Source: Cyanodermella asteris
Lineage: Eukaryota > Ascomycota > Lecanoromycetes > Ostropales > Stictidaceae
Assembly (NCBI GenBank): GCA_900618795.1
Contig: UYJD01000009.1
Coordinates: forward strand, 627,823 to 691,822
Direction of reading: 5' to 3'
DNA: 64,000 bases
Part shown: positions 7,147 to 64,000 of the stretch, piece by piece
Layout: each line of letters starts with the position of its first letter
Numbering within the stretch: position 1 is the stretch's first letter
Position numbers and translations under genes: made by a program
Notes under the pieces: model-generated
Databases searched by the model: none
Told to the model about the DNA's origin: nothing
The model's input: only the letters and a program-made list of their open reading frames with translations

Positions 7147-10029
7147 ATGAGTGACTCCGAGGACGACAGACCCCTCAGAAAGAGCGTCACAAACGGCAAT
7201 AGCACGAGTGAGTCCGCTTTCTCCCGATGTCGGAGCTACTTAGTCTATTGTGCTGGCAAGCTGCTTTTGTCCCGGTATCATGAGGTCGGGCATGGCAAGC
7301 CATTGTCACAAAGAACTGGGTTCAAAGCTTCTTCGTGTTCCCTCTGACCGAGACTGACCCACTACCAGCAATCAAATCCAAAGACAAAATCTCGAAGAGC
7401 GTTGATGACGCTATGGACCAGACAGACGGGGCCACTAATGGTGCCCCTCTTGGCATCTCGATTCGAAATGGTCCTGTTGACGAGATGGACGTTGATAAGG
7501 CCAATGGTGCTGTTACAGGCAAGAGGAAATCGCGTGGAAGCCTCACAAACGGGAAGACCTACAAGGAAGCGAGCGAATCTGACGATGAACCTTTGGTAAG
7601 TTGGTCTTTTGGTTTCTCAATATGCTTCTCCTGACACTGTCCAGAATAAGAAGCGTCGGAAATCTGCGAAACCGGCCGCGGTTTATTCAGACTCCGATGA
7701 TGACGCACCTCTGGTTGTGAAGAAGGGCTTGAAGCCGGTCAAGAAAGAGCCACCAAGCGCCATGGAAACATCAGTTTTGCCGGACGATGACTCGGATGTG
7801 CCTCTCGGCAAGAAGAAGAGACTTGCAGAGGTCAAGGCCAAGATTGAAAGGAAAACTGAGAAGGAGTCGAGGGCGCTGGAGAAAGCCGACAAGGCGAAGA
7901 AGAAACCTTCCACTGGCGGAGCAAAGACGCCTGCAAAGAAAGTAAAGAAGGAAGATTCGGACGACGATATTCCACTGAGCAAGACGAAGAAGGCCAAGCC
8001 CGCCGCCACGCCTGTCAAGAAGGGCAAGCAGGCCAAAAAGGAAGAATCGCCTGACCAGGAAGATGAGGAAGATCAGGACGACGAGGACGCCTGGTGGAAG
8101 GACCCTACGGGTGGTGATGGTACCATCAAATGGAAGACACTTCAGCATGCTGGCGTCGTCTTTCCACCTCCCTACGAGCGCCTTCCCAAGAACGTCAAGC
8201 TCTTGTACGATGGCAAGCCTGTTGACTTGGCCGAGGAAGCTGAAGAAGTTGCCGGATTCTACGGTGCCATGCTGGACTCGACTGTGAATGTTGGCAATCC
8301 CACGTTCAACAAGAATTTTTTTTCCGACTTTCGCGAGTATCTGAAGAAGACAGGCGGTGCCAAGGACAAGGACGGCAACAAGGTAGATATCAAGGAATTC
8401 GAAAAGTGCGACTTTTCCAAGATCTTTGAGCACTTCTCGGGCGAACGCGCGAAGAAAAAGAACGCCACCAAGGATGAGAAGAAGGCTGCAAAAGCCGCCA
8501 AAGATGAGGCAGAGGCGCCCTATATCTACTGTACATGGGATGGCAAGCAGCAGAAGGTCGGCAATTTCCGTGTTGAGCCGCCAGGATTGTTCCGTGGACG
8601 CGGCGAGCACCCAAAGACCGGCAAGGTCAAGAAACGTGTTCAACCCGAGCAGATCACAATCAACATTGGCAAGGAAGCTGTCGTTCCAGCACCCCCGGAA
8701 GGTCACAAATGGAAAGAGGTCAAACATGACCAGGAGGGCACCTGGCTGGCGATGTGGAAAGAGAATATCAACGACGCCCACAAGTACGTCATGCTTGCTG
8801 CCAATTCCGACGTCAAGGGCAAAGCCGACCATAAAAAATTCGAGAAGGCTCGCGAGCTGAAGAAACACATTGCCAGGATTCGCAAAGACTACACGAGAGA
8901 ATTGAAGGCTGAGAAGACTGCCGATCGCCAGCGAGCCACCGCCATGTATCTCATTGACAAGTTTGCCCTTCGTGCCGGAAACGAAAAGGGCGACGATGAG
9001 GCCGACACTGTTGGTTGCTGCTCTCTCAAATACGAGCATGTCGAGCTTAAGCCTCCCAATACCGTCATCTTCGATTTCCTGGGCAAAGACAGCATCCGCT
9101 TCCACAATGAGGTCGTCGTTGATCAGCAGGTCTTCAAGAATTTGAAGATTTTCAAGAAGGCTCCCAAAGCCGAGGGCGATGATATCTTTGACCGATTGAC
9201 GACCTCGAGCTTGAACAAGCATCTCAATAACTGCATGCCGGGCTTGACTGCAAAGGTCTTCCGTACCTTCAATGCGTCGAATACTTTCTCGGAGTTGCTG
9301 TCTAAGCTACAGCCCGGCGGAACTGTCCAGGAGAAGATCAAGCAGTACAATGATGCCAATCGCGAGGTCGCCATCATCTGTAATCACAAGCGCACTGTCG
9401 GTGCCGCCCACGAAGCGTCCATGGAGAAGATGAGTGAGCGCATCAAGGGCCTTCATTACCAGAAGTGGAGGCTCAAGCAACAAATGCTGGATCTCGACCC
9501 CAAGCTCAAGAAGAAGAAGGGCGCCGATTACTTCTCCCTCGAATCCGAAGGCCTCGACGAGGACTGGGTTAAGGAACATCAAACATTCCTTATCGAGCAA
9601 GAGAAGATCAAGATCGAAAAGAAGTTCGCCAAAGAAAACGAGAAGCTCGCCGAGAATAACGAGAAGGAGATGAAGCCTAAGGAGCTCGACGAACGTCTCA
9701 AAGTACTCAAAGAGATGGAGAAGCAGTTTGCCCGGGAGAACAAGACCAAGAAGATCGAAGCCGAGGGCAAGGCGCCAACGGTCGAGAAGCTAGAGACGAA
9801 CTTGGAGAAGATCGAGACGCGCATCGACAACATGAAGCTGCAGGCCGCAGACAAGGAAGAGAACAAGGAGGTTGCGCTCGGCACGTCCAAGATCAACTAC
9901 ATCGACCCCCGTCTCACGCAGGCTTTCTGCGCCAAGTTCAATTTGCCAATTGAGAAGCTCTTCAGCAAGACGTTACGCGAGAAGTTCGAGTGGGCGATCA
10001 AATCTGCCGACGCCAATTGGCGATTCTAA
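7147..10029 (+). CDS. TOP1: DNA topoisomerase I (type IB)
   Basis: Three exons (7147-7207, 7369-7595, 7645-10029) join in frame to 890 aa. The first about 190 residues are charged and low-complexity, with KKxK-type nuclear localisation stretches and acidic SDDD clusters, as in eukaryotic TOP1. The core follows (DAWWKDPTGG, FPPPYERLPKNVKLLYDGKPV). Catalytic-pocket motifs are KFALRAGNEK (Arg), KVFRTFNASNTF, ICNHKRTVG, and a linker helix region rich in Lys and Glu. The C-terminal SKINYIDPR holds the active-site Tyr at about residue 848. The enzyme makes transient single-strand breaks through a 3-prime phosphotyrosine and relaxes supercoils ahead of polymerases. It is head-to-head with ATP3. Confidence 0.97.
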
Positions 10030-40905: not shown

Positions 40906-43164
40906 GTTGACGGTTGGCGAGTGAGGTTCGGATGGACCAAGCGAAGGTTGTGCTGAAGAAGAGCTGCTTGTGGAAGTGATGCTTTCGAGAGAAGCAACTT
41001 TGGTTTGAGGGTGCAACAGCGTACGACTTGGGGTGAGATTGAGCAGTGCTAGCGCAAGGTGAGGAAAAAGGACGCAAGGAAAGGCGCGGCGGCGAACGGT
41101 GATATAGCGCAAGCGACTTCTCGCGAGAGGCAGGAGCGAAGGAAGCCAGAGCGAGCAGGCCCGAGCGCCGTTGCTGCTCGACGCTTCCCGGCAACCGCGA
41201 GCCCGCCACACGAAAAGCTTCACGGCTCTTCCTGCTCGGACTTGTACTTGTTCTCCTTCACACTGCCATCAGCTCTTCGCCTACGTGTTTTCCGACCTTT
41301 TGTGGCGACTCTCGCCCAATTGAACCGCTTCCTTGAGTGTCTGTGAGCAGTGCACCTTCTTGTCCTCACCCATTCTCGGCGCCGACAGGAGCTGCTCGCA
41401 ACAACGCCGTCTCGACTGTCCGATTTTGCACAGCATCAGCATGTAGCACAGGCCGGATTGCGGCCCAGGCGTGCTCCAAGATATCGCTGCCCTGAAGGGA
41501 AATTACATGTGGTGTACGGAAGTACGCTACACGAGTGTGATATTGGCCTGAAATTACGGCTGCATTTAAGCTTGTCGGCTACTGGATCTTGCGCTGATAT
41601 CATATTCCTTCGAAACAGCTCTAACAGCTCATGCCACATCCGTCACTTTACTTCCGTAACCCATGATCTCGCAAGTGACGGGCAGATATGACGGCCATGG
41701 CTCACGGCTTTGACACGAACGTCGCTCGAGTCGCACAGAACGGCAGCATCTTGCCACACCACACGGCGCAGATCGCAAGCCAATGCTCGTGTGAGCTGGG
41801 ACGAGAAGCTTGGAACGGGCCGGCTGCAATCGCTAGCTCGACGCTTATTTGCTGGTCGTTGTCAAGGTCCTCTTGCCCCTCTAAAAATATTCCGCATATG
41901 GAGATACCCAGGGAAAACACCAAATCGTTCAAGGTCTCGATTGCTGCCTTCTCGGCGGGAACGGCTGGTGCATTACGTCTCCCTTCTGCGACCATCAACA
42001 ATCGATGACAACACCTGCTGGATGTTCAGGTGGTTGTCCCTCATTTCTCTATCGAGGCTACGTGGCTTTCAGGATCGCTGCGCAGCTCGCCGGCTTCCTT
42101 GCTTACCATACGTTTCTCATGCCGACCGCAACCGGATCAACTCGACTTGCTAAACTCGCATGTTCACGTCAAGATTTGGCTTCTACCTTCTGCTGTATCT
42201 ACTCCATTGGAGGGGTTCGAAACGTTAATTCTTGAAAGACCCACTGTAGATTGGAATAGCACTTGTTCAACCAGTTTCCCACCAATTCCAATGTTAGAAA
42301 AGATGCGGATTCGAACTTGTAGGTCGTACTTATCCACAAAATACTAGAAGTAGTGACTGAGGATGTGGGAAGACATTCCATCAAACCCTAACGTGTGTCT
42401 ACGAAGGAATTAACGCTTCGAAGCCCTGCAATGGAGTATTGTAGCTTCTATCACAGCGGAGCCTGAGGTATCCACACCATTGCTCCGCATCGTAAAAGAC
42501 GTTCGCCACTTTCGCCGAGCCTCTGTTCGCCGCATAACAGTTGCGCGAGTTACTATCCGCGGAAGAAGCAAACGGCTCAACCAGTGCTTGCTGTTGCGCG
42601 ACCGCATAAGACCCCATTATACACTTGTGCGCATCGCTGCTTCAAAAGTTTACGTCTTTGGATTCTTTCAATCGATAAAAAAATATTGTGGCGCATTCTC
42701 GCTGTGAGCTTTATTCGATCGGCTGCTTAGCCCAACACATCCGCTGGTTTTCCAGTAGAAAATTTATTGTTGGCATTCCGTTCTTCATTCAGGTGCAATA
42801 GTCAGAAAACTTCATGTCAAGTATTACAAGTCAGTATTATCTCATTTCACAGCAGGAGCGAGGTTGCTGTGTTTTTAAAATTTAAAATCGTCAGATCTTT
42901 GGTGCGTCTGCGTCGGTATCAACTGCGAGGTTGACCGTCAACACTTCCAGTCGATTTGTTGGCCGGAGCTTCGGTAGTCGTCACTGTATTCGCTCGAGGC
43001 GAAAGCACTTCGGCCTCTGGTGTTGAAAGATGATGACTTGCCCTCTTCAACAAGGCCATCCGACCATTATCTGTTGAGAAACGGAGAGGACATGAAGAGA
43101 CTTGAACGGACCAGGTCAGTCTGGAATCCATCTCATCAATTCTTAATTGCTAGGCGTGGATGCC
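40906..43164. other. Gene-poor stretch
   Basis: A 2.26-kb interval without a recognised gene. The left end is the promoter of the GPI-protein gene. Several open frames of 60-150 codons overlap on both strands (for example 41702-42001 minus and 41710-42153 plus) without family resemblance or splice pattern. The part around 42700-42900 is A/T-richer. Confidence 0.4.
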
Positions 43165-48070: not shown

Positions 48071-49090
48071 TCAACCCTCTCCACCTCCCAGAACCTTCTC
48101 CAACACCTCCGCCGTCCCCACAACCCGACAAAACTCCCCATCCAAACTCCTCAAATGCACCTCGTGCACCGTCTCCGCCCCAAACCGCCCCTTCCCAAAC
48201 GTCGCCGTCGCGTCCCCGACGACCAAAAACCCCATGATCCCCCGCCCCGGGCCCTGACCCGTCCACCCCGCCCTCATCCCCCAGTACCTTCAGATTCGCC
48301 GCCATGCGCACCGTCGTACTCACGCAGTGATCCGTCGTCAGGCCCGCGACCCACCAACTGCCGGATCCCGTGGTTTTCCGCAGGTACGCCTCGAGGTGCG
48401 TTCCGACGAAGCTCGAGTTGGAGGATTCGACAAACGTCGGTTCNNNNNNNNNNNNNNNNNNNNNNNNNNNNNNNNNNNNNNNNNNNNNNNNNNNNNNNNN
48501 NNNNNNNNNNNNNNNNNNNNNNNNNNNNNNNNNNNNNNNNNNNNNNNNNNNNNNNNNNNNNNNNNNNNNNNNNNNNNNNNNNNNNNNNNNNNNNNNNNNN
48601 NNNNNNNNNNNNNNNNNNNNNNNNNNNNNNNNNNNNNNNNNNNNNNNNNNNNNNNNNNNNNNNNNNNNNNNNNNNNNNNNNNNNNNNNNNNNNNNNNNNN
48701 NNNNNNNNNNNNNNNNNNNNNNNNNNNNNNNNNNNNNNNNNNNNNNNNNNNNNNNNNNNNNNNNNNNNNNNNNNNNNNNNNNNNNGTTGTGGGTCGGTGC
48801 CGCGGAGGGGGAGGGTGAGGGTGAGGGTCGGGGTTTGAGGGGTCGGGGAAAGGTGGCGGAGGGGGTGGGAGTTGGGAGGAGTGGTGGGCGGAGTGGTGGT
48901 GGACGTGGAGGATGTGGGGTTTGGAGGGCGGGTCGGCGGTGGAGGAAAAGGCTCGGAAGGAGGTTAGGAGGGCGAAGACGTTGGATTCGAAGTTGGGGTT
49001 GCTGCGTGGTGTGCCCCAGTGGGTGGGGTGGTCGAAGCCGCGTTGGATGTCGATGAGGAGGGCGGTCGGGGTTGTGCTTGCGGGCTTCAT
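48071..49090 (-). CDS. Isochorismatase-like cysteine hydrolase, with assembly gap
   Basis: The N-terminal part ([20 protein letters not shown], holding the catalytic Asp) and the C-terminal part ([37 protein letters not shown] with the catalytic Cys, [35 protein letters not shown]) identify an isochorismatase-fold hydrolase. The central part is lost in the N run 48444-48785. Between MAANLK and GIMGFLVV the frame changes near 48240-48282. Two readings fit: a 34-nt intron with GTACTG/TCAG borders, short for a fungus, or one extra G in a G-rich run. The segment left of the gap is Pro/His-rich and G/C-extreme, so base accuracy may be poor. The family is certain; activity cannot be judged. The start could also be an ATG at 49123. 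Confidence 0.75.
48444..48785. other. Assembly gap (342 N)
   Basis: A run of 342 undetermined bases lies inside the isochorismatase-like gene. The flanks are very G/C-rich and low-complexity (C-rich on plus left, G-rich on plus right), a likely reason for the gap. Confidence 1.
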
Positions 49091-55551: not shown

Positions 55552-56895
55552 ATGCAGTCCAAGATCACTTTCGGTCTCCTCGCCGCTGCAGGCTTCGCTG
55601 CCGCCACCGAGGCACCTTCGTACGGAAACGCCGGCAACCAGGTGTCCAGCGCCCCGGGTGCCACTCACTCAATCCCCGGCTACGGCGGAGAGCACGGCCA
55701 CTCCGGCGCCCCAGTCGAGACTCACTCAGTTCCCGGCTACGGCGGAGAGCACGGCCACTTCAGCGCTCCCGGCGCAACACACTCGATCCCCGGTTGGGGT
55801 GGCGAGCACGGCCACTCTAGCGCTCCAGTCGCCACGGGCGTCGTTGCTTCCATCCCCGGCTACGGGGGTGCGGGCAACGGCCCATCCAGCGCTCCCGGTG
55901 TTTCTTTCACGACTCCCGCGTTCTCCACCTACACTGGGATTGTTGGCGTGAACGGCACCGTTCCTGCTGTCACACCTTACGGCGGTAGCCAGACTACCCC
56001 TGCCAGCTCAGAGATCACCCCCATCGGTGGTGGATCTGGACCGGGATCACCGGGCTACGGATCCGGTAGCGGTTCCGGTGTCAGCTCGGACGTCGGCTCT
56101 GTCACTACTCCTGCTTCATCCACTGCTTCTGGATCTCCATCGTACGGCTCCGGCGACGAGGGTTCCGGTGATGAGGGCTCCGGTGACGAAGGCTCCGGTG
56201 ATGAAGGATCCGGAGACGAGGGCTCTGGCGATGAGGGCTCTGGCGACGAGGGCTCTGGCGACGAGGGCTCTGGAGACGAGGGCTCAGACGACGAAGGTTC
56301 CGGCGATGAGGGTTCCGGCGACGAAGGCTCTGGCGATGAAGGTTCAGGCTCGGTGACCACCCCGGCCGCTAGCGAGTCCACTGGCACACCCAGCTACGGC
56401 TCCGGCGACGAGGGCTCAGGCGACGAAGGCTCAGGCTCAGGCTCAGTCACCACCCCCGCCGCCAGCGAGGGCACCGGCGCTCCCAGCTACGGCAACGCCT
56501 CCGGCAGCCCCCAATCCCCCTCCAAGTCCATGCACTGGGGCGGCTACGGCGGCCAGGGCGGAATGGCACACAAGTCGGGTCACGCCCACAAGTCCGGCCA
56601 CGCTCACAAATCAGGTCACGCCCACGCCACCGGCCACCACGCCCACAAGTCCGGCTCGCACGAGAAGCCCACCGGCGAGCGCCACCACACCGGCTCCGAG
56701 GCCACTGCCACCCCGGTCGTGCCCGGCTACGGCGGCGGCGTCTCTTCCGGCCCCGCCGGTCTTCCCTCCACCACTGCGATGGTGTTTAGCACTTTCTTGA
56801 CTTCCGTCCGCTCGGCCCCGGGTTACGGTGGTGCCGAGTCCGAGACTGCTCCTGCTGCGCAGACTACGCCTGCTGGCGAGGGCCCGTCTTACTAG
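55552..56895 (+). CDS. Secreted repeat protein (EHGH, SGDEG and HAHKSG repeats)
   Basis: One exon encodes 447 aa. A signal peptide (MQSKITFGLLAAAGFAAA) is followed by three or four 21-23-aa units of the type APGATHSIPGYGGEHGHS. A Thr/Ser/Pro/Gly region comes next, then a tract of 13 SGDEG-type pentapeptides (56146-56340), one reading SDDEG, and a second tract of two. A His/Lys-rich block (GHAHKSGHAHKSGHAHKSG, about 56566-56655) and a Ser/Thr-rich end complete it. No Cys and no GPI tail are present, and no Lys-Arg processing sites separate the units. The acidic and His tracts could bind metal ions or interact electrostatically in the wall; that is inference. It is a wall or secreted protein of unknown role. 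Codons vary between repeats, so the tract is maintained at protein level or is old. Confidence 0.85.
   Translation: MQSKITFGLLAAAGFAAATEAPSYGNAGNQVSSAPGATHSIPGYGGEHGHSGAPVETHSVPGYGGEHGHFSAPGATHSIPGWGGEHGHSSAPVATGVVASIPGYGGAGNGPSSAPGVSFTTPAFSTYTGIVGVNGTVPAVTPYGGSQTTPASSEITPIGGGSGPGSPGYGSGSGSGVSSDVGSVTTPASSTASGSPSYGSGDEGSGDEGSGDEGSGDEGSGDEGSGDEGSGDEGSGDEGSGDEGSDDEGSGDEGSGDEGSGDEGSGSVTTPAASESTGTPSYGSGDEGSGDEGSGSGSVTTPAASEGTGAPSYGNASGSPQSPSKSMHWGGYGGQGGMAHKSGHAHKSGHAHKSGHAHATGHHAHKSGSHEKPTGERHHTGSEATATPVVPGYGGGVSSGPAGLPSTTAMVFSTFLTSVRSAPGYGGAESETAPAAQTTPAGEGPSY
56146..56340 (+). repeat. 15-bp minisatellite coding SGDEG units (13 copies)
   Basis: Thirteen in-frame 15-bp units of the form GGN TCN GGN GAY GAR run head to tail, one with GAC in place of the second Gly codon. 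Synonymous third positions differ between units. A two-unit echo is at 56398-56427. Confidence 0.95.
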
Positions 56896-58916: not shown

Positions 58917-60872
58917 CTATGTCCTGACCTCAACACCCTGCATCCCTCCTTCCGCTCGCCATGCCTCAACATGAGCCGTAAAGTCCTCGACACCACGGCC
59001 CCATATGCCAGATCGTGCAACTTGCATCTGAGCCTCTGGCGGAACTCGATCGAGATCGCCTTCCATATTGAAGTAGTTCGGAGTGCAACCCATTGCGGCA
59101 GCCATCGGCGGAGACCGCATCAAAATTTGCATACCCCAATTCTGCGTGGCCTCAGTCGTGGCTGATACCTCAAATGGCTTCCCACCCGACCTCTTCTGAG
59201 CCTCTTGCAGGATGTACGCAGCATGCTTGGCGAGCACGTCGGTGTTGAAGAGATTGTTTGGACTGAGGGTCGCCTGCCATGGACCGGATAGGAAGAGGTT
59301 TGGGAAGTTATGGTCGAGCACGCCATGAAGAGTCGTCGGACCGTTGGCGGCCCAGGCTTCGGTCATTGAGATACCGCCCCGACCTATGATTTTGAGATTG
59401 GCTTTTTCCGCAGGTGATCCGCCAAAGGGAGCACGGAAGCCAGTAGCGAAAATAACGGCGTCCACAGGATATTCTTGGCCATCGGCCACGATGCCAGTTT
59501 TAGTGAGGCGTTCCAATCCCTTGGCGTTGGTGTCTAGAAGTGTGACGTTGTCACGATTGAAAATCGGTAGATATTCGTCAGAATAACAAGGCCGTTTGCA
59601 CCAGGTTGGATACCACGGTTGAAGCTTCTCGGCTATCTTTGGATCTTTCACTTCTTTCACAACGCGACTGCGGATGCGCTCGAGCCGTGGTAGGTCGAGC
59701 TTACTCAGCTTTTCCATATACGCTGGCAGATCTTCTATCGTTCTCGGTCCGTCGGGGTTGCCTGCCACAGCCACCATGCCTCTCGCGCGGGTCCAGCCGT
59801 CATCGACGAGGTTTACTTCTGGTGGCTGGGCTGTGCTGACGGCGTGCTGGTGGAAGTTTCGAAGCCTCTCGCGCTGCCATCCTTGCGACGTGGCCACAGA
59901 CTTGTGAAACCATTCTTCATCGGTATTGCGATTATCGCGTGTGTCCACAGCAGCTGGAGTACGCTGGACGACGTACAGATGCTTTGCCCAGCGAGCGAGG
60001 TGTGGTGCAACTTGGACGCCGGAAGCGCCAGTGCCCACCAACGCGATACGCTTGTCTTCGAGGCTGGACATGATCGGTTCGGCTTGAGAGCCACCGGTGT
60101 ATTCATAGTCCCATCGAGAGGAATGGAAGATCTTGCCACCATAATCCAGGATGCCGGGCAACCCGGGAAGTTTCAACCAGTGAAGAGCACCGTTGACGGT
60201 TGCCACGAACGTCGACCGCACGTTCAAAGTCTGTGGCTGGCCACCATACCTGTGCTGCACAAGTGCAACGTTCCATTCTTTCGTCGATTCGTTCCATTCG
60301 AGTTTCTCTGCTCTGGTTTGAAACACTCCGCAATCGGATATCTTCCACTTCTGAGCAATGTGCTCAGCATAACCACGAATTTCTGCACCACTGGAAAAAC
60401 GTTGAGATGGGATGAAGCCAGTCTCCTCCAAAAGCGGTAAGTAGGAATAACTCTCGATGTCACAGTTAATGCCAGGATACCGGTTCCAATACCAAGCTCC
60501 ACCAAAGCCCCCGGCAGTGTCAACAAGTCTGATGTCCTTCGGATCTATTCCGGCTTCAACCATGCGGACCGCATACAAGATGCCGCCGAGTCCGGCACCG
60601 AGTATGAGCACTTTGCAACTGCTGTTGGGAAACATTTGTTGGATATCCTTTACAGACTTTCCAGCCCACGGATCAGATTGGAAATGCTGAAATTGGTCGG
60701 TCAGAGAAACATCAATGAATTGCTTGTCACCTTCATCACGAAGGCGCCTGGCACGTTCGGCACCATATCGCTTCTGGACTTGTAGCACATCCACGCCGGG
60801 CACACCTTCATCGGCATAGGCTTCGCCGGAAGACATCAGACTAGCAGCAGCAAGGCCGGTTGCCTCCGCCAT
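58917..60872 (-). CDS. FAD-dependent Baeyer-Villiger monooxygenase
   Basis: One exon encodes 651 aa. Motifs in order: first Rossmann GAGLGG (residues 91-97, VLILGAGLGGILYAVRM), GGFGGAWYWNRYPGINCDIE, the Baeyer-Villiger fingerprint GGKIFHSSRWDYEYT (FxGxxxHxxxW[P/D] type), and the second Rossmann RIALVGTGASGVQVAP. They are followed by VIFATGF. This class uses FAD, NADPH and O2 to convert ketones to esters or lactones (cyclohexanone/phenylacetone monooxygenase type). The N-terminal about 80 residues before the first Rossmann fold are typical of the longer fungal members. It sits between the HET remnant and a receptor-like gene, in a neighbourhood that resembles a metabolic cluster. Substrate unknown. 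Confidence 0.95.
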   Translation of the reverse strand: MAEATGLAAASLMSSGEAYADEGVPGVDVLQVQKRYGAERARRLRDEGDKQFIDVSLTDQFQHFQSDPWAGKSVKDIQQMFPNSSCKVLILGAGLGGILYAVRMVEAGIDPKDIRLVDTAGGFGGAWYWNRYPGINCDIESYSYLPLLEETGFIPSQRFSSGAEIRGYAEHIAQKWKISDCGVFQTRAEKLEWNESTKEWNVALVQHRYGGQPQTLNVRSTFVATVNGALHWLKLPGLPGILDYGGKIFHSSRWDYEYTGGSQAEPIMSSLEDKRIALVGTGASGVQVAPHLARWAKHLYVVQRTPAAVDTRDNRNTDEEWFHKSVATSQGWQRERLRNFHQHAVSTAQPPEVNLVDDGWTRARGMVAVAGNPDGPRTIEDLPAYMEKLSKLDLPRLERIRSRVVKEVKDPKIAEKLQPWYPTWCKRPCYSDEYLPIFNRDNVTLLDTNAKGLERLTKTGIVADGQEYPVDAVIFATGFRAPFGGSPAEKANLKIIGRGGISMTEAWAANGPTTLHGVLDHNFPNLFLSGPWQATLSPNNLFNTDVLAKHAAYILQEAQKRSGGKPFEVSATTEATQNWGMQILMRSPPMAAAMGCTPNYFNMEGDLDRVPPEAQMQVARSGIWGRGVEDFTAHVEAWRAEGGMQGVEVRT

Positions 60873-61594
60873 TATAACAAGGAATGATGTAGCTGGAAAA
60901 ATATGTTTGCGTGAAAGGCGAAGTCGAGGGAAGCCCGTCGGGAATTGTTTCTATATGCTGAATTGCAAGGCCGATTTCATATCGGTACGATTGCAGGGAC
61001 TTTAGCAGTTGGGTATGAAGGGGATGCAGGTTGTATAGCTGAGAACGCCTTTCAGCTGCGGCCGATTCCCTGACCTGCTGCCGCTTTAGTGTCCCATTAG
61101 TCTGAGGGCGATGTGGAGTAGTGATGACCATGATGGCCATGTGCATGCACGATGCACGCTAGTAGCTGCGCCAGAGTCCTGCATTGTGGCACTCAAGCGC
61201 CGTTGATGCATGCACATGGCCATCATGGTCATCACTACTCCACATCGCCCTGCCGCCAAGTTCCGACGAGGCCAGCACTATCCGTGATCCTTCGAATCGG
61301 AGACGGAAGCCCGAATGGGCATTCGAGCGCAAGCTTGAAGCTACGTCTTGCCTGCCGTGCCATCCGGTCGGGCATTGTCCATTTCGTTGTCCGAGCCAGA
61401 TCATGGCTGAGGCGAAGTCTCGCAGGTTTCGTGGTCTCACATCTCGGCGCAGCCTCCCCGCGTTTAAGGACTTCAGCGCGCCTTTCAACGATGGTTCGCC
61501 AGACCACAACTGACTACTATCTACCTCATCCCTTACATCAGCTACTGTGGCATTTTCGCATACAGTACTCCACCACCCGGCTCCACTTCTCCAC
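60873..61594. other. Spacer with a perfect inverted repeat
   Basis: Upstream of the monooxygenase (minus) and downstream of the receptor-like gene (minus). It contains the inverted repeat at 61105-61251. Open frames on both strands at 61152-61728 overlap each other and resemble no family. Confidence 0.5.
61105..61251. repeat. Perfect 45-bp inverted repeat with 57-bp spacer
   Basis: The left arm 61105-61149 (begins AGGGCGATGTGGAGTAGTG, ends ATGTGCATGCA) is exactly the reverse complement of the right arm 61207-61251. The spacer is 61150-61206. Bases immediately outside and inside the arms do not pair. The arms are not A/T-rich. Confidence 0.97.
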
Positions 61595-62815
61595 TCACAC
61601 CTGGCTAAACGAGGACACGGGCTTATCAGTTGTTGAGTCCCTTCGCTCTCGATGGACAGTATACTCGTACTGGACGTGAATCGCGCCAGGATTTGAGCTA
61701 TGCCCCTGCTTGAGGGACGCCAACTCAAGCTGATGCTCCCCTACCTCTGCCGTAGTAGTTCCTGCGGACTTCAGATGCATGAAAGTTCGGCTCCCTGATG
61801 GTCGGTCAGAGGTTTTGCGGCCTGTGCTTTTCTTCCTGAAAATGGCTGGAATCAATGGGACACATGCAGCAACGATGATCAAATCGTTCTCGATGCTGTT
61901 CCACAGGCCGATCGACATTGTGTGATTGTAAAGAGCCTCTAGGTCTGGATTACCGAGGAGGGTCCCGTTCTGTGATACTTTCACGACGCCTGTGGCGAAG
62001 GCGCTAGGTGAGAGTCAGCCGGTGCCGCGAAAGTTATGATTACGTAATCAACTTACGTCAAGCCAATTCCCATCAGTGCAATGGTGGAAACCTTTTTCCA
62101 AGCCCGCATCTTCAGCTTTGCAATCACAAATGCAGGATAGATCGCGAAAAGGAGATCGACTGCTGTTGAGCAAGCTGTTTTACAGTTCAGATTTTGCACT
62201 TTTGCATCCGGGAAACGAGAAACTCACCACTTGCTGCGAGTGAATAATCGATCTGCACGTTTCGAGCCCAACAAACAACATCTGGGTGGCTATAGGGATC
62301 CCATTGACCAGCGACCGGATTGCATTGCACAAAGCAAATGATGAATCCGGCAATACATATGATAAAAAGCCCGATGGTGACCCCGAGGAATGTCGATCGA
62401 ACCCATGGTCGTGGGCGGAAAATTCGGATGAGCAGGAAGGCGACAGCGACCTTGGGGAGAGTGACGCTCAGGAACGACCAAGAATCTGTGAAGAGTGCCC
62501 AGAAGGTCGCATGAGGCACTGTGTCAACAACGTTATCTGGGGTGACCTGTCGAACCCATGAAAGTGCGATTGCAAAGGTCACCATTCGCACCAAGTCAAG
62601 AGCCTGTCTTCATCAGTCATCGAATGTGGCATCAACATGGAGTATCTCACCCAGGAGATCGAAATTATGATATCCTCCCAACCGAAAGGCATCTCGATAA
62701 ACCATATTCTCGATACTGTACGCAGAGCGAAGGCTACCGCGGCTAGGGCGAAGAACGTCCATGATGCCGCAGAGGCACGGTAGGTAAACGAGATGAGATC
62801 GGTCTGGGTAGACAT
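61595..62815 (-). CDS. Rhodopsin-domain integral membrane protein (PTH11-related)
   Basis: Four exons (62651-62815, 62228-62603, 62057-62162, 61595-62003) join in frame to 351 aa. Features: seven hydrophobic segments, FGWEDIIISISWALDLVRMV, TLPKVAVAFLLIRIFRPRPW, a CNPVAGQWDP loop, and IDYSLAASAVDLLFAIYPAF continuing AKLKMRAWKKVSTIALMGIG. The tail is hydrophilic. It is in the same broad fungal rhodopsin-like family as the gene at 46320 but divergent from it. In place of the usual DDW it has WED. Such genes often lie in metabolic clusters. Ligand unknown. Confidence 0.9.
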
Positions 62816-63785
62816 TACTTGTGAAGATGGAAGACTTTGGCGAGGAACAATGCACAGTGCTCAGGAGTAGCTTGCTTCCCCTGAGTCCTTTAAAAAGGTA
62901 TTTCTTTTCCCCTCGGAATTCAAAGCCAGACCATCCGTTTGGACCGCCTGTGACGAAACGTTTCTCCTGAAGCGGAGACCAGATCGTGGTTCTTACCAGG
63001 ACCATCCATCTTAAAGCGGCACTTGCTGGCCGGAGACTCGTCTTGGACTGCTAGGAATGCGACGTGTGGCAAGGAACAAGGAAGCGAGCGGATGCCGCCT
63101 ATCTAGCCAAGCGGCCCACGAGACCTAGCGCCAAAAACAATGGCAGATACGCCGTACTTCGGCAGAAAGTTGGGTGGTAATGTGCCTGTCCACAGTGTCA
63201 GCATGCATATCTGTTATCTTCAGCTGCGGCGTCGTCACAATGTGGGTGACATTGTGGACCAAAACTGTCTTTAGCCTTACAGTCTATACTATTATCTAAT
63301 CCTGAGTGCTTTGGTGGAGACCTATCGAGGACTTCGAGATCCCTGTCAATCCTCGGAGGCTCAGAGCCACCCGACTGGCCCAACCACTTCACCGACGCCG
63401 GGATAGTGATCTATCAGGTACGATGTGGGCCGGAAGGGGGCGACCCTGAAACACCCTCGCGCGCTATCGTCCAGGCGTCAAACACACCAAGGTTGTTATG
63501 CATGCTTTTGGTTAGCATTGCGATCTTGTTGCAGACTGGCAGACTGTGTGTTCACCAACCTCCCTGGGATCGAAGGAGGGGTGCAAAAGCTACGGCATTC
63601 CGGACAACAGTCTGCTAAGCGCTTCAATCTACTGATAGAATATTTATACCGGACCTACACCTCGTAAAAAGCGACTCAATCATACCTATATTTGACTGAT
63701 CTTTCCTTGGATGCTGCAGCTCAACAGCGTCTGAAAGCGACTCCATTCTTCCCTACAGTTCGTGTCTTACCAAATATCACTCACT
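62816..63785. promoter_or_regulatory. Divergent promoter region
   Basis: A 970-bp spacer between the receptor-like gene (minus) and the AMP-binding gene (plus). A TATA-like TATTTATA is at 63641-63648, about 140 bp upstream of the latter start. No gene is supported inside. Confidence 0.4.
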
Positions 63786-64000
63786 ATGGCCATGAACGGA
63801 CAGAAACATCTCAGCGACTTGCTTGATGATGCTGTTCGTTCTGGAAGGAGTTGCTTCTTTTACAGATCGGGACTCTCGGAGCCATCTGTCTTGACTTATG
63901 AGGAGCTTCGTCGAAATGCTCTGTCCAGAGCTGCATCACTCTCCCGAAAGTCCGGACTGAACGACGCCAAAATTGTCCTCATTCACTTCCGGGAGCATGA
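63786..64000 (+). CDS. AMP-binding (adenylation domain) enzyme, 5-prime part
   Basis: The first 71 codons of a gene cut by the window edge. It reads MAMNGQKHLSDLLDDAVRSG, SCFFYRSGLSEPSVLTYEEL, and KIVLIHFREH. This is the opening of an ANL-superfamily adenylation domain as found at the start of fungal NRPS or NRPS-like enzymes (TYEEL followed by a VLLHF-type strand). Whether carrier, condensation or reductase domains follow cannot be seen. I choose the first of two ATGs (63786 and 63792). Confidence 0.65.
   Translation, partial: MAMNGQKHLSDLLDDAVRSGRSCFFYRSGLSEPSVLTYEELRRNALSRAASLSRKSGLNDAKIVLIHFREH

Follow-up and report, generated by a model that had tools for sequence, protein, structure and literature searches.

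How did a perfect 45-bp inverted repeat come to lie between two genes of this fungus, and does it do anything there? The window, by which we mean the whole 64,000-nucleotide stretch of DNA that was analyzed, corresponds to C3:627823-691822 of a genome whose 25 contigs total 28.5 Mb. The repeat sits in a 722-bp gap (60873-61594) that separates two minus-strand genes, and its parts and neighbors are as follows, in window coordinates.

58917..60872, minus strand: Baeyer-Villiger monooxygenase-like ORF, 651 aa, with its ATG at 60872; Pfam and structure matches
61105..61149, plus strand: left arm of the perfect inverted repeat, 45 bp
61150..61206, no strand: spacer between the arms, 57 bp
61207..61251, plus strand: right arm, the exact reverse complement of the left arm
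61595..62594, minus strand: 3' part of a fungal-rhodopsin-domain gene, with a Pfam match in the ORF at 62187-62594

An initial annotation had placed the repeat upstream of a Baeyer-Villiger monooxygenase, and this assignment held: the repeat lies 233-379 bp upstream of the ATG of the 651-aa ORF, the Pfam matches of that ORF include Pyr_redox_2 and FMO-like, and among solved structures its closest relative is 5mq6 (under the deposited name pyridine nucleotide-disulfide oxidoreductase-like protein), which we take to be PockeMO, followed by phenylacetone and steroid monooxygenases. On the other side of the repeat, the likely last ORF of the rhodopsin-domain gene ends at 61595, at a distance of 344 bp; the ORFs in 61595..62594 appear, by eye from the ORF list, to be exons of one gene. 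Five ORFs of at least 80 aa overlap the repeat, and the two that were scanned against Pfam (61159-61728, minus strand, and 61152-61679, plus strand) gave no match; a coding role for these ORFs was rejected on this basis. The window also carries a HET domain identified by Pfam, and its genes appear by eye to be interrupted by introns. Taken with the rhodopsin domain and the RNAi domains described below, these traits point to a filamentous ascomycete. At its far end, a 958-aa ORF (window 63762-64000 plus L007:584-3460) contains AMP-binding, PP-binding, and thioesterase domains in an NRPS-like A-T-TE order; this ORF, the monooxygenase gene, and the rhodopsin-domain gene perhaps form a small metabolite gene cluster.

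The inverted repeat itself is real. After reverse complementation the arms are identical at 45 of 45 positions, which bears out both the exact arms and the 57-bp gap that had been described, and the total foldback measures 147 nt. With the composition of the window, the chance expectation for 45-bp perfect inverted repeats with a spacer of at most 400 bp is 1.2e-17 in 28.54 Mb. An inverted-repeat survey covered 207,460 readable bases, made up of the window and 17 loci from the same genome (about 0.9 kb entered the count twice, mostly because L007 shares sequence with the end of the window). The repeat had the top score, 45, followed by an imperfect pair at 42200-42438 with a score of 23 and a perfect pair in locus L009 with a score of 18; among perfect repeats with a spacer of at most 400 bp, the runner-up is 18 bp long. 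Five control sequences of similar size, which were regenerated from first-order Markov transition frequencies and are not exact shuffles, gave best scores of 12, 12, 14, 16, and 13, against the 45 observed.

Each arm contains the nested palindromes ATGGCCAT and TGCATGCA, as had been noted. ATGGCCAT is found seven times in the window, against 1.03 expected, and none of 100 shuffles reached seven; two of the seven occurrences are those in the arms, and one falls at the likely start codon of the AMP-binding ORF. TGCATGCA shows no clear enrichment, with four occurrences against 1.77 expected and 7 of 100 shuffles reaching four. It is a self-complementary 8-mer that forms the inner edge of both arms (the left-arm copy occupies 61142-61149), while the outer edges of the arms are not palindromic; 8-bp palindromes account for 0.37% of window positions. 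The spacer folds no better than shuffles, as DNA or as RNA and on both strands (z between -0.15 and 0.71), and hairpin priming by a structure inside the spacer was rejected for this reason. The age of the repeat is weakly constrained. A recent origin had been read from the identity of the arms; the absence of differences at 45 positions still allows an arm-to-arm divergence of up to 6.4% (95%), so a recent origin is only loosely supported, and gene conversion between the arms would weaken it further.

A small foldback element was among the origins first put forward. The repeat does resemble MITEs and foldback elements in its build, a short middle flanked by inverted terminal arms; a 147-bp shape with 45-bp terminal inverted repeats, set in an intergenic site, would fit a miniature transposable element of this type, and the genome does contain MITE-like elements. 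The searches, however, returned a single locus. A 196-bp query matched its own locus alone on both strands of its own genome, in a similarity search that passes over simple repeats and highly frequent words, so that its copy counts are lower bounds. The proposed check for dispersed copies gave the same answer, as a 29-mer and a 25-mer from the arm, allowed up to three mismatches, were found in the 28.5-Mb genome only at the two arms. The sequences directly adjoining the arms contain no equal pair of 2-10 bp that could be a target-site duplication. Within the 40-bp flanks, GCCGC is the only shared word of at least five bases; it sits directly against the right arm but about 20 bp away from the left one, and its recurrence may be due to chance. 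The exact arm 25-mer was absent from bacterial/archaeal and viral contig collections, and the 196-bp stretch had zero plasmid matches. A bacterial, viral, or plasmid origin was rejected on these searches.

The same window offers a contrast, in the form of a multi-copy element that looks different.

42202-42436: MITE-like element, 235 bp, with TA at 42200-42201 and 42437-42438 and imperfect inverted ends of about 30 bp

The arms of this element match at 28 of 31 bases. Three further near-full-length copies, with identities of 86, 87, and 90%, are found on contigs 9, 11, and 15, making four in all; they cover positions 8-249, 9-252, and 11-249 of the 259-base query and end where the flanking TA pair has its outer edges or no more than 3 bp away from there. 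We read the pair at 42200-42438 as a TA-flanked MITE. Since the same kind of search retrieved this element in four copies, it serves as a positive control for the single-locus result obtained with the 45-bp repeat. The latter differs from MITEs and foldback elements in its perfect arms, in the lack of a second copy among the matches found, and in the absence of an abutting target-site duplication; its single locus and missing duplication make it unlike a mobile element. A mobile or foldback origin was therefore rejected as largely refuted, and we regard a MITE-like source for the repeat as exceedingly unlikely.

We conclude that the 45-bp inverted repeat is probably the scar of one short-range template switch in DNA replication. 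Of the four origins that the initial annotation had offered, this one fits best, because no second copy was found, the arms are perfect, no target-site duplication abuts them, and their composition is mixed; the foldback or mobile element is the one that went unsupported. The locus holds a perfect reverse-complement copy (45/45) of a source 57 bp away and has the appearance of one local event without dispersed copies, the two arms being the only matches. In such an event, the nascent strand would leave its template during replication, read a nearby stretch of some 37-45 nt in the opposite direction, and switch back, leaving the 45-bp inverted repeat in the 722-bp intergenic gap. A nascent end lying in the 8-bp self-complementary TGCATGCA could have paired again with the TGCATGCA of the opposite arm, a role proposed post hoc; the switch itself and its direction, meaning which arm served as the source, are likewise inferred.

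Published cases give this explanation a frame. Short-range template-switch mutations, as set out under the four-point model in the accounts of PMC7954356 and PMC8794818, have in common with the repeat a perfect inverted repeat of tens of base pairs and a source close by, with dispersed copies not found. According to the great ape account, most template-switch patterns leave single inverted repeats, and templated inserts have a median length of 12 nt and reach at most 128 nt (PMC7954356); the 45 nt seen here are inside the reported range. They also greatly exceed the median event reported, which counts against a template switch. By the account of PMC8604942, the same process is documented in yeast for shorter arms: in quasipalindrome-to-palindrome conversion the arms are likewise perfect, and the 57-bp spacer of our repeat is under the study limit of 70 bp, but the arms in its yeast examples measure 8-16 bp and lie in coding genes, whereas those described here measure 45 bp and are intergenic. 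Hairpins, including microRNA precursors, are described as carrying mutation patterns that fit a template-switch origin (PMC8794818). Also counting against a template switch, perfect arms are equally expected if selection or gene conversion keeps them alike, and the argument from TGCATGCA is weakened because the palindromic inner edge came to attention only afterwards, and in two repeats.

A further perfect repeat was found on the same contig.

L009:9087-9123 (C3:720087-720123): perfect inverted repeat, 18+1+18 bp (37 bp), 31 kb from the 45-bp repeat

The inner edge of this palindrome is self-complementary over 6 bp (6-mer palindromes account for 1.5% of window positions), and a search of its own genome found no other copies. 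It spans the point, at 9111, where a 174-aa ORF ends: the left arm encodes the final residues, the stop codon lies just past the center, close to where the right arm begins, and what remains of that arm is beyond the stop. Because the left arm is coding, it is likely the source and the right arm likely the copy. The 174-aa ORF resembles, by eye, a membrane protein. With two perfect repeats seen in 207 kb, scars of this kind may not be rare in the genome; since 164 kb of the 207,460-base survey consists of the window and its neighborhood on one contig, no genome-wide rate can be derived from them.

The foldback could in principle be put to use as RNA. We consider it unlikely that this is a young hairpin-RNA locus, in which the 147-nt foldback would be transcribed and diced to small RNAs acting on a target or silencing a neighbor, although the genome contains RNAi genes, with Dicer-, Argonaute-, and RdRP-type domain matches over the cutoff: a Piwi domain at three genomic places, RdRP matches at four, and two open frames with two RNase III matches each (plus one single match). 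The minus strand of 61090-61265 has a predicted RNA fold of -114.6 kcal/mol, with a z score of -13.5 against shuffles, and forms a stable foldback with no large internal loops in the duplex; every perfect inverted repeat folds this stably, however, so the stability is not independent support for a hairpin RNA. Small-RNA processing of the hairpin would be possible. Fungal milRNA/hairpin RNA loci, in the account of PMC9757828, resemble it in a long stem that might be diced and in the RNAi domains of the genome, and the top-tier fungal hairpin loci are given there as nearly all lineage specific. Against such a locus, no long trans target was found with the arm 29-mer and 25-mer in the whole genome (at most three mismatches), and Rfam gave no match anywhere in the window at the gathering score; a known RNA family was rejected on the latter result. 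A stem this stable within a translated leader should block scanning, so the hairpin probably lies outside the 5' leader of the monooxygenase. Very doubtful, too, is the proposal that a hairpin-RNA gene has just arisen beside the monooxygenase gene through a single template-switch step, that is, a newborn small-RNA locus whose arms have not yet diverged; were it true, the second palindrome, at a distance of 31 kb, would point to frequent births of this kind in the fungus. Elsewhere in the window, ARAGORN called a tRNA-Arg at 56023-56099, inside a Gly/Ser-rich repetitive ORF; because Rfam places no tRNA in the window at the gathering score, this is probably a false call.

The position of the repeat ahead of the monooxygenase ATG and the short palindromes within its arms would also suit a cis-regulatory repeat, acting on the monooxygenase or its neighbor through protein binding or a promoter cruciform, with arms held identical by selection or gene conversion. 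However, 45 identical base pairs are more than a binding site requires, and the arm words occur nowhere else in the genome at up to three mismatches, so the arm is not a shared long site; we hold a regulatory origin to be very unlikely. An assembly or library artifact can be given equally little credence. Inverted chimeras are familiar from certain amplification methods, and a 342-base run of N is present in the window at 48444-48785, but the 147-bp span with its unique flanks should fit ordinary read lengths, and a chimera would need to dominate the consensus. The N run itself, a gap or a masked stretch, falls inside an ORF that we take, by eye, to resemble an isochorismatase-type hydrolase.

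The preferred explanation thus remains a template switch, and the 45-bp repeat is probably ordinary, another instance of an already known mutation class, with probably no specific function beyond its capacity to fold into a hairpin or cruciform. Should a template switch have left it, the repeat would be one clear, long example from a filamentous fungus of a class of mutation that has been studied in great apes, in rRNA and microRNA genes, in E. coli, and in yeast. Template-switch scars have been proposed, in the account of PMC8794818, as raw material for new hairpin RNAs. Should small RNAs arise from these arms, the locus would represent a hairpin-RNA case at an early stage; otherwise, it would be ordinary mutational debris.
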